Positions 31,700 to 36,304 of a stretch of 64,000 nucleotides of DNA are shown here, one piece after another. Origin of the DNA: Arcobacter sp. CECT 8983 (lineage in GTDB: Bacteria; Campylobacterota; Campylobacteria; Campylobacterales; Arcobacteraceae); NCBI RefSeq assembly GCF_004118855.1, contig NZ_PDKF01000005.1, forward strand, positions 62,001-126,000. Reading direction: 5' to 3'. Both the position numbers and the translations under genes were made by a program. How positions within the stretch are numbered: position 1 is the stretch's first letter; each line of letters opens with the position of its first letter. The notes under the pieces were generated by a model, which saw only the letters and a list, made by a program, of their open reading frames with translations, ran no database searches and was not told the origin of the DNA.

Positions 31700-32099
31700 G
31701 GGGATGACTTGGTATCGATTAGAGCAGTGAGGATCAGTTGCATGTCGGCCTGAACATGCCGTTACGCGGTTCATTTTTTTTAGACGCAAACAATACTGAT
31801 TACGCTCCAGCTTACGCAAAAGCTGCGTAAGTTTAACAACTTATAGGACTCGCCTTAGGGCTTGAGACCTCGGAGGCTCACACTACTGATTCTATCTAAG
31901 TAGATTTTAGTGGGTTCACCCAAGATAGATTATCATCTTAGAGTTGATTTGGCTAATTTGAGACACTTTTAAATCTTAGCTTCGCAATTGTTTTTGCGGG
32001 TTGAGCTATTGTGAAGTGAAATTTTTCAACCCTTCTAAGCATGTAGACGCTGGTAGTAGCTGTTTTAAGACTGGAGTTCGATTCTCCACATCTCCACCA
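31700..32099 (+). ncRNA. ssrA: transfer-messenger RNA (tmRNA)
   Basis: The 5' end GGGGATG pairs with 3' CATCTCC, followed by ACCA, forming the tRNA-like acceptor with one G-U pair. The T-arm GGAGTTCGATTCTCC is intact. The tag reading frame runs 31786-31830 and encodes ANNTDYAPAYAKAA, close to tags of other Campylobacterota. tmRNA frees stalled ribosomes and marks their products for ClpP and other proteases. Its 3' end is a common integration site for mobile elements, which matters for the DNA that follows. Confidence 0.97.
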
Positions 32100-32103: not shown

Positions 32104-32431
32104 TAATAATTATACTTTCTATTTTATTCTAAAAGGTTCGATATAATCGAACTTTAACATTCTAAATTATTCTATCTCATTCTTATAGTTTTTAATAATT
32201 TCTAAGATTTATTACGGTAATTGCTAAAGTTCAAAAATGGATACCGTATAAATGATAAAATAAGTATCAATTTCCTTTATTTAAAAAAGAATTTAAAAAA
32301 TTTATAATATAATTTAATGAAATAGTGTTATAAGTATCTATTTTATGGTATATTTAATCTAATAAAAGATTTAAAAAATAATTTAAAAAAAGTATAGATA
32401 ATCTATACTTTTTTATATAAAAAGGTTACGA
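32100..32431. other. 332-base gene-free stretch after tmRNA
   Basis: It is very AT-rich and no credible gene is seen. It holds a small perfect hairpin (GTTCGAT-ATA-ATCGAAC, extended by wobble pairing, 32133-32155) that may terminate ssrA. An inverted repeat TACGGTA/TACCGTA lies at 32213 and 32242. A strong terminator-like hairpin sits just before fic (listed separately). Confidence 0.6.
32386..32414 (+). terminator. terminator-like hairpin in the fic leader
   Basis: GTATAGA-TAA-TCTATAC extends through A and T runs to a stem of about 12 bp and ends in TTTTTT. It is placed 17 bases before the fic start codon. It may shield fic from ssrA read-through, or attenuate fic. Confidence 0.65.
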
Positions 32432-33622
32432 ATGTATACAACTCCAACTATACCACAAACTGAACATTATCCTTTAAAGCAAGAGATACTTAATAAAGCA
32501 GAGCGTATTATAATTGAAAGTGCTAAGTTAACAGGAAATTTAAATATACATATAATTAATGCAATAAAAGAAAATTTACGGACTATAAACTCTTATTACT
32601 CAAATAAAATTGAATCAGAAGGTACTCATCCTATTGATATTGAACGTGCAATGAAAAATGAATTTTCACAAGATGATAAAAAGAAAAGTATGCAACAATT
32701 GTCATTGGTACATATTGAAGTACAAAAATATTTAGAAACAACACTAGATATCTCATCTAAAGCATATTCATTAGAAAAAATACTAGAGATTCATAAAGAA
32801 TTTTATAGTAAAGAAGAAATGAAATATGCACTAAATATTAAAAATGGTGAGTTAGAAGTAGAAATGATACCTGGGAAACTAAGAGAAGGTTATGTACGAG
32901 TTGGAGAACATATCCCACCTCAAAGTGATGAATTAATAGCTTGCTTCAATGAATTTGAGATGTTATATAATCAATCTAGGAACTCTACACACACAATGAA
33001 ACTAATCTATGCTTTATGTTCTCATCATAGATTAACATATATACATCCATTTTATGATGGAAATGGAAGAGTATCTAGACTTTATTTAGATTACTTATTG
33101 TATCACTCTGATATCCAAGGTTATGGATTATGGAATATATCAAGAGGACTTGCTAGAAATCAAAAAGAGTATAGGAAGTTTCTGTCTTTAGCAGATGAAA
33201 AGTTTAGTGGATATAATGATGGAAGAGGACCATTAACATTAAAAGGACTTGAAAACTTTTTAGAATTTATGTTAGATATTGCATTAGATCAAGTATTATT
33301 TATGAGTGAATATTTAAAATTAGATTCTATGGCAACAAAGATAAAAGCTTATGTTGAGCTTTCACAAAAAAAACTAATTCATAATGTCAAGCCTCTACCA
33401 AAAAATTCAAATAAACTATTAGAATATTTATTGGTTCATGGAGAAGTAACTAGAGGTGATGCACAAGAAATCTTAGGTGTAAGTGCTCCTAAGGCTATAG
33501 CTATTGTAAAAGAGTTACTAGAAGAAGATTACTTACAAACAGATAGTCCTAGAGGAAAATTAAGATTTAAATTAAATAGTAAATTATCTAACTATCTTGT
33601 ACCTGATTTATTTGAAAATTAA
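32432..33622 (+). CDS. Fic family protein with C-terminal winged helix
   Basis: Fic proteins usually move AMP from ATP onto target proteins. The 396-residue protein has an intact active-site motif HPFYDGNGRVSR (205-216). An N-terminal helical region has SNKIES (57-62), close to the class II inhibitory motif (S/T)xxxE(G/N) but with Ser in the last place. A C-terminal winged helix-turn-helix (about 320-385) is present. It lies in the island next to ssrA. No small antitoxin gene is adjacent, which fits a self-inhibited enzyme. Confidence 0.92.
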   Translation: MYTTPTIPQTEHYPLKQEILNKAERIIIESAKLTGNLNIHIINAIKENLRTINSYYSNKIESEGTHPIDIERAMKNEFSQDDKKKSMQQLSLVHIEVQKYLETTLDISSKAYSLEKILEIHKEFYSKEEMKYALNIKNGELEVEMIPGKLREGYVRVGEHIPPQSDELIACFNEFEMLYNQSRNSTHTMKLIYALCSHHRLTYIHPFYDGNGRVSRLYLDYLLYHSDIQGYGLWNISRGLARNQKEYRKFLSLADEKFSGYNDGRGPLTLKGLENFLEFMLDIALDQVLFMSEYLKLDSMATKIKAYVELSQKKLIHNVKPLPKNSNKLLEYLLVHGEVTRGDAQEILGVSAPKAIAIVKELLEEDYLQTDSPRGKLRFKLNSKLSNYLVPDLFEN

Positions 33623-33749
33623 ATAAATAGACCCATTCTTAAAATATACCTCATAATTGAATATTCATTATTATTCAAAAAATGATTCCTTTTAGTTTCA
33701 CTATATAGTAAGTAATTATTTTATAAATTTATAATACAAAAGGAAATAA

Positions 33750-34017
33750 ATGGCAATAAAAAATTTAATTTTAGTTGCAATTGCAGTATGTTTAATGATT
33801 ACTGGATGTACAAGAAAATCAACAGTACAAAAAGAAACATTTAATAAAACATTCAAATATAAAAGGTTCTATAGCTCTTTTAACTGGTTAATTTGGAGAT
33901 GAAGCTGGACAGCATATTTATTAAAGAGAAGAGTATATTACATTACAAACTGCATTAGGAAAAGTAGTTAAAGACTTAGGACATATATCTGTTAATTATA
34001 TGATGGAACAAGTTTAA
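33750..34017 (+). pseudogene. broken lipoprotein gene
   Basis: A good ribosome-binding site (AAAAGGAAATAA) and ATG start a lipoprotein signal ending in the lipobox ITGC. The frame stops after 50 codons at TGA 33900. In the other frame the text continues from KGSIALLTG through FGDEAGQHIY and REEYITLQTALGKVVKDLG to a stop at 34015, interrupted by two TAA codons. This is best read as one lipoprotein of about 88 residues broken by a frameshift and two stops. The original family is not recognised. Confidence 0.6.
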
Positions 34018-34028
34018 TAACAACATAG

Positions 34029-34050
34029 GTAAGGATATATATGTCCTTAC
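34029..34050. terminator. bidirectional terminator
   Basis: GTAAGGA pairs with TCCTTAC around an AT loop, followed by TTTATTT on the plus strand. It separates the broken lipoprotein gene from the convergent two-gene module. Confidence 0.65.
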
Positions 34051-34051
34051 T

Positions 34052-34627
34052 TTATTTACAATTAACATTATATGTATAATCTATATAATCTCGATCTTTA
34101 TCTTTATATGATAATTCAATAAAATGCTTAAAAAGTTCAAACTCATTACTGTCTAAAATTAAGTATTGAGGCTTATTATTCAAAAAATCTATATTCCATT
34201 TAAACAATTCTGGATATTTAGAATCAAACCACATTAAAAAAGTTAATGTTTCAGGAGTATGTTTATGACCTAATCTACTTAATAGAATAACTGAATCTAT
34301 AATATGATAATGATTCATAATAGGATCAAAGTTTATTGTTTTATCATGATCTTTATCAGCATGTTTAAAAAAGTTTTTAAACGCATTAATAAAAGTAAAT
34401 ACTTCTTTTTTACTCATTCTTTTTGTATGATTATTTTCTAGCATAGTGTTTGAAATATCCTTTTCTTGCACTTTTACTAACGTTCTTAATATTTCATTAG
34501 TAGCACCAACAATAGTATGAATTGATATATCATCTTTTCTTTCAAAAAACATATATATTGATGTGTTTAATTGATTTATTGCAGCAGTAAGTTTATTTAT
34601 TGTAGTTATATTTTCAAGTTTTACCAT
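34052..34627 (-). CDS. hypothetical protein of island module, 191 aa, HEPN-like motif
   Basis: I do not recognise a named family. The protein is mostly helical and soluble, with no signal or membrane segment. Residues 84-89, KNFFKH followed by AD, have the spacing of an Rx4H HEPN motif with Lys in place of Arg. The start has AAAGGTG upstream. It follows its partner gene by 20 bases and is surely in the same operon. The HEPN reading is an inference from a short motif. Confidence 0.6.
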   Translation of the reverse strand: MVKLENITTINKLTAAINQLNTSIYMFFERKDDISIHTIVGATNEILRTLVKVQEKDISNTMLENNHTKRMSKKEVFTFINAFKNFFKHADKDHDKTINFDPIMNHYHIIDSVILLSRLGHKHTPETLTFLMWFDSKYPELFKWNIDFLNNKPQYLILDSNEFELFKHFIELSYKDKDRDYIDYTYNVNCK

Positions 34628-34647
34628 TACTTATCACCTTTTATTAT

Positions 34648-35760
34648 TTATATAGAATGTTTTAAAATCTCATCATTAAACTCTTGAAAGTTTTCAATAA
34701 AATGTTCTTTTGTCCTTTCTGTTGTATGAAGTGATATTCTAGTATCTCCATTATTTAGATAAGGTCTATAATCGACATAATGATTTTGCCAAACTGTTTT
34801 AAAATCATTTAATTCAATAGTTCTAGTAAGTTTGAAAAAACTTTTAAATTCAATATGTTGAAATAAAATAGCCATTGTCTTTATAAATAAATAAGAAGTC
34901 GAATTTATAAGTTTTTGTGCAGTTTGAATGATTGGTAAATCATCAATAATATGATCTAAATATAACTTACCTTGAGTTGTAATATAAACACAAAACAAAT
35001 CACTATTTAATGATAATATATTTCTATTGTGTGCAAATTCATTTCGCAAGTTTGTTTTACCACTAGCTAGATTAATCAATACTCCATCAAAAAAATGTTT
35101 ACATTCTTCAAAAGCTTCTAAGATCTTAACCGATTCTAAAGATGAACTATCCCTTAATCTTTTTTCAAAATTACTAAAATATCCTTTTTCTTCATAAATA
35201 GGTAAAACCCTTTTTAGGACCTTTCCACATTCTTGATCCACTTTTTCATTATTACTACCATTATATAAAGCTTTAAATCTATTTGTTACATACTTTCTAT
35301 CAGTTGAGTTTGTTCTTTCCATTATATACTTATCATTATACTCAATAAGTCCTACAGTTAGTTTATCCAATATTGCAGAACTTTCTAAAATTAAAGATTG
35401 AAAATCAAAATATATTTCTGATGGAGCAAATCTATATTCAACATTTCCACCATTTAAATTTCGATATTCATGATGAGGTCTTTTATTGCCAAATGTATAA
35501 TCACTATATTCATATGTACTTATAACACTTATTCCAAATCTATGTGCAGCAAATAAAAAATATTGAAAGCTTCTAAGTAAATCTTGTAATATCATCATTC
35601 TTGATTCTGTAAGAATAGGTGCATTTGTTATATTAGTTCTGATCTTTTGTTCCAGTTCAAAATAAAAATTTAATACTGTTTGATTGTTATAAACCTCATT
35701 GATACGATCATTAAACATACTTTCCCCGGTATAGTAAATAATTGATTCTCCATCAGACAT
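34648..35760 (-). CDS. hypothetical protein of island module, 370 aa, candidate HEPN domain
   Basis: The ATG at 35760 has GAGAAG eight bases upstream, better than the in-frame TTG at 35766. The protein is soluble and largely helical. Residues 239-244 read RNEFAH, an exact Rx4H motif with the polar residue after Arg that is common in HEPN ribonucleases. It lies in a helical stretch after HFFDGVLINLASGKTNL. HEPN proteins cut RNA in many toxin-antitoxin and phage-defence systems. Fold and activity are not proven here. It is the first gene of a two-gene operon in the ssrA island. Confidence 0.6.
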   Translation of the reverse strand: MSDGESIIYYTGESMFNDRINEVYNNQTVLNFYFELEQKIRTNITNAPILTESRMMILQDLLRSFQYFLFAAHRFGISVISTYEYSDYTFGNKRPHHEYRNLNGGNVEYRFAPSEIYFDFQSLILESSAILDKLTVGLIEYNDKYIMERTNSTDRKYVTNRFKALYNGSNNEKVDQECGKVLKRVLPIYEEKGYFSNFEKRLRDSSSLESVKILEAFEECKHFFDGVLINLASGKTNLRNEFAHNRNILSLNSDLFCVYITTQGKLYLDHIIDDLPIIQTAQKLINSTSYLFIKTMAILFQHIEFKSFFKLTRTIELNDFKTVWQNHYVDYRPYLNNGDTRISLHTTERTKEHFIENFQEFNDEILKHSI

Positions 35761-36304
35761 AATCAATACTTCTCATTCTTTCTTTTCACTATTTAAAAAT
35801 AATGATTATAATGATAACTATATAATACTTAATAAGATAATATTGCATTTTAATGTATTATTATATAGAAATAAATAAGACAACAAGGCTATTTTTCATT
35901 AAAAAATAGTAGTTAGTTTTATTTTTTGGTAGATTAATTGATACTTTATAAATTTCAATAATCCCTTAAATAATAGGGTTTAGAAGCATTACTTAGGAGT
36001 CTGGAGAAAGTACCTTATCTTTTTTATCAAAATTTTTTAATGGGTATTATATAATAATTACTATTTTATAGTATTCTTCAATTCCCCAGATCCCACCAAT
36101 ATAAAATCTAAAATTAAAGACTTTACTTTAGTCTTCATATTACACTATCATTTAATTTTTATAATGTATACATTTATTCAAATATTATCTAATAAGATAT
36201 TCTTTCTAACCCACCCAAATTTCTTAAAAACAATTTTAAATTCTGCAAGTTTTAAGCCAGACTTCTTAGCTATCATAATCAAAAATGTCTACAAAGGGTA
36301 AGTA
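35761..36304. other. 544-base intergenic region at the right edge of the island
   Basis: It is extremely AT-rich with no credible reading frame. It contains an imperfect hairpin (AATCCCT with AGGGTTT, about 35963-35984) and the degenerate tmRNA-end repeat at 36077-36102. The promoter of the chemoreceptor gene must lie in the last part, but no box stands out. Confidence 0.6.
36077..36102 (+). repeat. putative attR: degenerate copy of the tmRNA 3' end
   Basis: It matches tmRNA positions 32077-32103 with three mismatches and one deleted base, and ends in the exact shared CCACCAATAT. There is no T-arm pairing and no acceptor partner, so it is not a functional RNA gene. It marks the probable right end of a 4.0 kb inserted segment. 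Confidence 0.5.

Follow-up and report, generated by a model that had tools for sequence, protein, structure and literature searches.

The smaller protein of a two-gene operon behind ssrA in Arcobacter sp. CECT 8983 belongs to a real, unnamed protein family that is missing from Pfam, PADLOC, NCBIfam and PHROGs and is found in prophages and plasmids of unrelated bacteria. Together the two genes probably make up an anti-phage module that is new without being exotic: the small family is new, the kind of protein is already known and the mechanism is not surprising. The reading we favor, tentatively and at somewhat less than an even chance, is that the small protein represents a HEPN-like family of abortive-infection effectors and that the large protein is an orphan, Tha/ApeA-like companion, functions that we infer for both.

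A two-gene operon with HEPN-type motifs

We rechecked the ORFs and the sequence in the window, the 64,000-nucleotide stretch of DNA analyzed here. Both minus-strand ORFs lie where the preliminary description had placed them, as do the two HEPN-type motifs that it had reported, RNEFAH and KNFFKH.

34648-35760, minus strand: large gene, the operon's upstream gene; 370-aa orphan with one HEPN-like motif, R239-NEFA-H244
35029-35046, minus strand: RNEFAH codons (residues 239-244) of the large gene, from sequence
34052-34627, minus strand: small gene; 191 aa, ATG start; member of the unnamed HEPN-like family, KNFFKH at 84-89 (from ORF, homologues, alignment, model and fold matches)
34361-34378, minus strand: KNFFKH codons (residues 84-89) of the small gene, from sequence
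34029-34050, minus strand: terminator-like hairpin right after the small gene's stop (1 found, 0.2 expected)

Both genes are still open, intact reading frames. The large protein has 370 aa from its ATG, or 372 aa with an upstream TTG. In the operon the large gene comes first, separated by a 20 nt gap from the small gene, which is preceded by a good Shine-Dalgarno sequence, AGGTGA.

A cargo-swapping defense hot spot behind ssrA

The HEPN-like operon occupies a decayed, variable defense slot directly behind ssrA, and the mobile-island and defense context proposed for it was borne out by the genes that relatives carry at the same place.

31700-32099, plus strand: ssrA (tmRNA), anchor of the hot spot
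32261-36206, no strand: variable segment that G006, the closest relative, does not have (blastn junctions; cargo in relatives)
32432-33622, plus strand: Fic-domain protein; best PADLOC model SoFic, E 2e-29; a 97% identical copy lies beside an integrase in G004
33751-34018, plus strand: gene debris, a truncated lipoprotein start and then a stop-broken remnant; G004 has an intact 358-aa lipoprotein

The window and G006 differ exactly at 32261-36206 and share 93% DNA identity beyond it. Behind ssrA, G006 carries a DUF2290 protein and a UvrD-like helicase, both PADLOC-listed; G012 carries an integrase and a SIR2 protein (PDC-S25); G005 carries a BsuBI/PstI-type restriction-modification pair; and G004 carries an integrase, the same Fic gene (97%) and the intact lipoprotein, with NsnA-like and weakly TIR-like proteins farther along. 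The slot is a cargo-swapping defense hot spot in the genus, swapping having been noted at the window's 32261-36206 and at loci L050, L052, L055 and L056. As such, the ssrA site would be a productive place in the genus for finding further systems.

The window's insert has no integrase. At 32250-32262, next to ssrA, what is left stops at about the start codon of the lost integrase; G006 keeps the first integrase codons. The lipoprotein is cut off at 33864, and at 33751-34018 its decayed start is joined to a second stop-broken remnant (KGSIALLTG...VVKDLGHISVNYMMEQV), a fusion that marks a deletion junction. No repeat of the tmRNA 3' end was found within 3 mismatches as an island boundary.

The small protein belongs to a family with an invariant N-x-x-K-H

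By themselves, the bare motifs do not go beyond chance in either protein. Among composition-preserving shuffles of the large protein, 46% carry Rx4H and 9% carry R[NDH]x3H; among those of the small protein, 22% carry [RK][NDH]x3H. R[NDH]x3H also occurs in 2/52 window proteins and in 10/97 neighbor proteins at related loci (~10%). The small protein even contains a second, unrelated exact Rx4H, RLGHKH at 118, and the pattern is therefore loose. Two observations do go beyond chance: NFFKH is conserved throughout the small family, and the small protein has its predicted fold.

Relatives of the small protein were found by tblastn on Vibrio (E 4e-19) and Ilyobacter (3e-14) plasmids and, more weakly, in Burkholderia and Rhizobium. 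Profile-style scans added eight viral-contig loci (IMG/VR prophages), and phmmer with the window's protein as query recovers the relatives at all eight. Invariant in a nine-sequence alignment are K12, Q19, L20, I24, F28, D32, S35, N85-F-F-K-H89-A90, D93 and W133. Across the distinct members, counted with the window included and L012 and L015 left out as near-copies, N85, K88, H89 and D93 are kept in 11/11, and F86 also remains once the distant Rhizobium and Burkholderia members join the alignment. The residue that opens the motif is R in 7/11, K in 2/11 (the window and L016), Q in 1/11 and Y in 1/11. Because most of the family has the full Rx4H, K84 is ordinary variation; the contrast between one full and one altered motif, once read as toxin versus antitoxin, reduces to R/K/Q/Y variation at the level of the family.

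The small protein has no significant match in Pfam, PADLOC, NCBIfam, PHROGs or PDB sequences. Its only Pfam rows, to EF-hand (E 0.012, below the cut-off), we set aside, attributing them to a chance resemblance of the D/K-rich ADKDHD. HEPN_Apea (PF18739) gave sub-threshold matches over the motif in 3/9 family members (Vibrio at E 0.0038), the best of them scoring 18.1 bits, below the curated cut-off of 24.4. Profile comparison of the family with ApeA-like and AbiV-like sequences, from small alignments, was not significant, and a literature search for the string NFFKHA found nothing. A widespread HEPN-like family of prophages and plasmids with a clear N-x-x-K-H signature would give phage-defense catalogues a searchable effector, one for which there is now no PADLOC match.

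Relatives of the small protein are solitary genes

In their neighborhoods, the relatives are single genes. One setting is beside a plasmid resolvase; others are near a repressor and an integrase, or after tail genes. Some relatives lie between an antitermination-like zinc protein and the holin and lysozyme genes that follow, and at L013, L014 and L017 the gene lies by a lysis cassette or an antitermination-like gene. No partner recurs across these neighborhoods except the common prophage backbone of L013 and L014. The idea that the pair forms a system was not upheld: a partner comparable to the 370-aa protein is present in 0/10 neighborhoods, which makes a conserved toxin-antitoxin pair less likely.

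Two unnamed proteins with HEPN-type motifs and no Pfam match lie near small-gene relatives, at L018 6052-6654 (RNLVTH) and at L005 3977-5899 (RCDIVH). At the background rate of such motifs, neither is striking.

The best fold matches of the small protein's model are HEPN proteins

The AlphaFold2 model of the small protein, built with nine sequences, reached a pLDDT of 73.6 and a pTM of 0.73, with predicted helices at 12-28, 33-53, 73-88, 104-118, 125-137 and 162-178. KNFFKH forms the end of the predicted helix 3 and the first loop residue. In HEPN domains, too, the motif closes the third helix, and the variable insert is placed in the loop that links helices 2 and 3, which the model also has (PMC3710099).

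In VIA-align searches the model matched AbiV best (9bj7, Z 8.5, rmsd 3.5 over 120 residues; 9bj5, 8.2; 9bj6, 7.9), followed by Csm6 (6.5), an AMPylated HEPN toxin (5.8), HepT/SO_3166 (5.6) and AF_0298 (5.5); most of the rows that come next after AbiV are entries for Csm6, HEPN toxins and HepT. The best Foldseek match was also AbiV, at E 0.33, with all E-values 0.33 or worse, and a fold search of a viral structure library gave no meaningful match. A Z of about 8 may reflect a generic helical bundle. HEPN is nevertheless the best reading, because HEPN entries concentrate at the top of the matches and the motif is suitably positioned, and judged on fold alone we consider it fairly likely. The preliminary interpretation is supported in part, including its HEPN proposal for the small protein: the predicted helical bundle, the HEPN top matches, the motif ending helix 3 and the invariant N-x-x-K-H speak for it, and the Arg, which is not strictly conserved, and the Foldseek E of 0.33 speak against it.

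The large protein is an orphan

The large protein has no significant match in Pfam (up to E 10), PADLOC, NCBIfam, PHROGs or PDB sequences, and searches of 200 relatives, of a 397-genome phylum sample and of plasmids, phages, viral contigs and genome contigs turned up no relative of it. The viral- and genome-contig scans used a single sequence and reach close relatives only, so distant relatives may exist. The single genome-contig match, L007, and the weak phylum matches that we checked proved spurious, being on the opposite strand of another gene, in stop-broken frames or in a ClpB-like ORF. This large orphan illustrates how much island cargo is still without a detectable relative.

RNEFAH has the Rx4-6H form of HEPN motifs with a polar residue after the Arg, against the chance rate of 9% given above for R[NDH]x3H, and in context, LRNEFAHN, it looks like a textbook example. 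We base the putative HEPN assignment of the large protein on this one motif. Its single-sequence model (pLDDT 32.7) is unusable; a low-confidence helix is predicted before RNEFAH. Common ancestry of the large and small proteins was rejected (hhalign probability 0.5%).

Proposed mechanism and alternatives

Our analysis establishes the family with its conserved residues, a bundle as the predicted fold, how the operon is laid out and the hot spot that holds it. On this footing we propose that the small protein acts as an effector with a HEPN fold and probably an RNase-like activity, encoded by a stand-alone accessory (moron) gene mainly of prophages and plasmids. It would homodimerize, bringing the N-x-x-K-H residues of both copies together in one cleft. 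An infecting phage would trigger it, RNA would then be degraded or bound, and the cell would be stopped, as in abortive infection. In most hosts it would act alone; here it would be co-transcribed behind the 370-aa orphan, whose N-terminal part could sense phage and which carries RNEFAH towards its C-terminal part, a layout reminiscent of Tha and ApeA, as a possible sensor-effector companion. Any co-operation between the two proteins is putative, and a tighter form of it, in which the sensor-HEPN orphan and the small Lys-motif HEPN protein make a two-component abortive-infection system with a mixed RNase complex and a composite active site, strikes us as very unlikely.

In one alternative, RNEFAH would be a chance match, the large protein an unrelated, fast-evolving accessory protein and the small gene the only one that matters. 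The shuffle rates of 9% for R[NDH]x3H and 46% for Rx4H, the 10/97 neighbors elsewhere and the lack of a Pfam match up to E 10 all point that way, but the motif has the classic form, with a polar residue after the Arg and RN-x-x-A-H as in the ApeA-like CRNNLAHG, and a helix is predicted, at low confidence, ahead of it; on balance we think this somewhat unlikely. The small protein could instead be an RNA-binding regulator of prophages that is HEPN-like and non-catalytic, much as the motif-less MtlR, and that acts, for example, in late-gene or lysis control, with the operon as a relic of such cargo. Inactive HEPN regulators have been discussed (PMC3710099), the Arg gives way to K, Q or Y in some family members, and the lysis-cassette and antitermination-like neighbors at L013, L014 and L017 would suit such a role. 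The invariance of N, K and H, however, suggests a working site, and the neighbors of other relatives are an integrase, a plasmid resolvase or tail genes, which leaves no fixed link to lysis. We regard this regulator as unlikely.

A toxin-antitoxin pair, in which one protein is a HEPN RNase and the other its inhibitor, would account for the tight two-gene operon with its 20 nt gap, and two-gene systems, HEPN/MNT among them, are a common setting for HEPN toxins (PMC7641770). Against it, the relatives of the small protein are solitary, with the large-type partner in 0/10 neighborhoods; the two proteins are unlike each other by hhalign; and the large protein matches neither a nucleotidyltransferase nor any other family of known antitoxins. 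Such a pair seems to us distinctly improbable.

Comparison with known systems

Among characterized systems, Tha-1 of a Staphylococcus aureus prophage offers a tested precedent for the layout that we propose for the 370-aa protein: it has 301 aa, with an undefined N-terminus and a C-terminal HEPN carrying RNSIMH (PMC11087260). Tha-1 and Tha-2 are prophage-borne HEPN proteins, and the resemblance of Tha-1 to the large protein with its RNEFAH is an analogy of layout only. Tha has a cognate inhibitor, Ith; its RNase activity and trigger are proven, whereas for the window's proteins we infer both. ApeA-like HEPN proteins (PF18739) share the RN-x-x-A-H form with the large protein, and their weak matches to the motif region of three small-family members all fall below the curated cut-off. 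HEPN/MNT (HepT/MntA) is likewise a two-gene operon with a HEPN-type protein, and HepT structures are among the small protein's fold matches; it differs in its nucleotidyltransferase partner, which the window's operon lacks, and the relatives of the small protein have no partner.

AbiV (HEPN_AbiV, PF18728), a lactococcal abortive-infection RNase, is the best structural match of the small-protein model and of similar size. Like the proposed kind of the small protein, it is a small helical HEPN protein in phage defense, but the two share 5% identity in the structural alignment. PF18728 has no match in the small protein (up to E 10) and none in its genome. AbiV is typically without the motif His (PMC3710099), which is invariant in the small family. 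From the missing PF18728 match and the invariant His, we conclude that the small protein falls outside the AbiV family. A true AbiV-family protein (PF18728, E 1e-24) is encoded in a genome of the same taxonomic family, at L068:1261-1920 on the minus strand, downstream of a 442-aa type I restriction/helicase-like ORF on the same strand.
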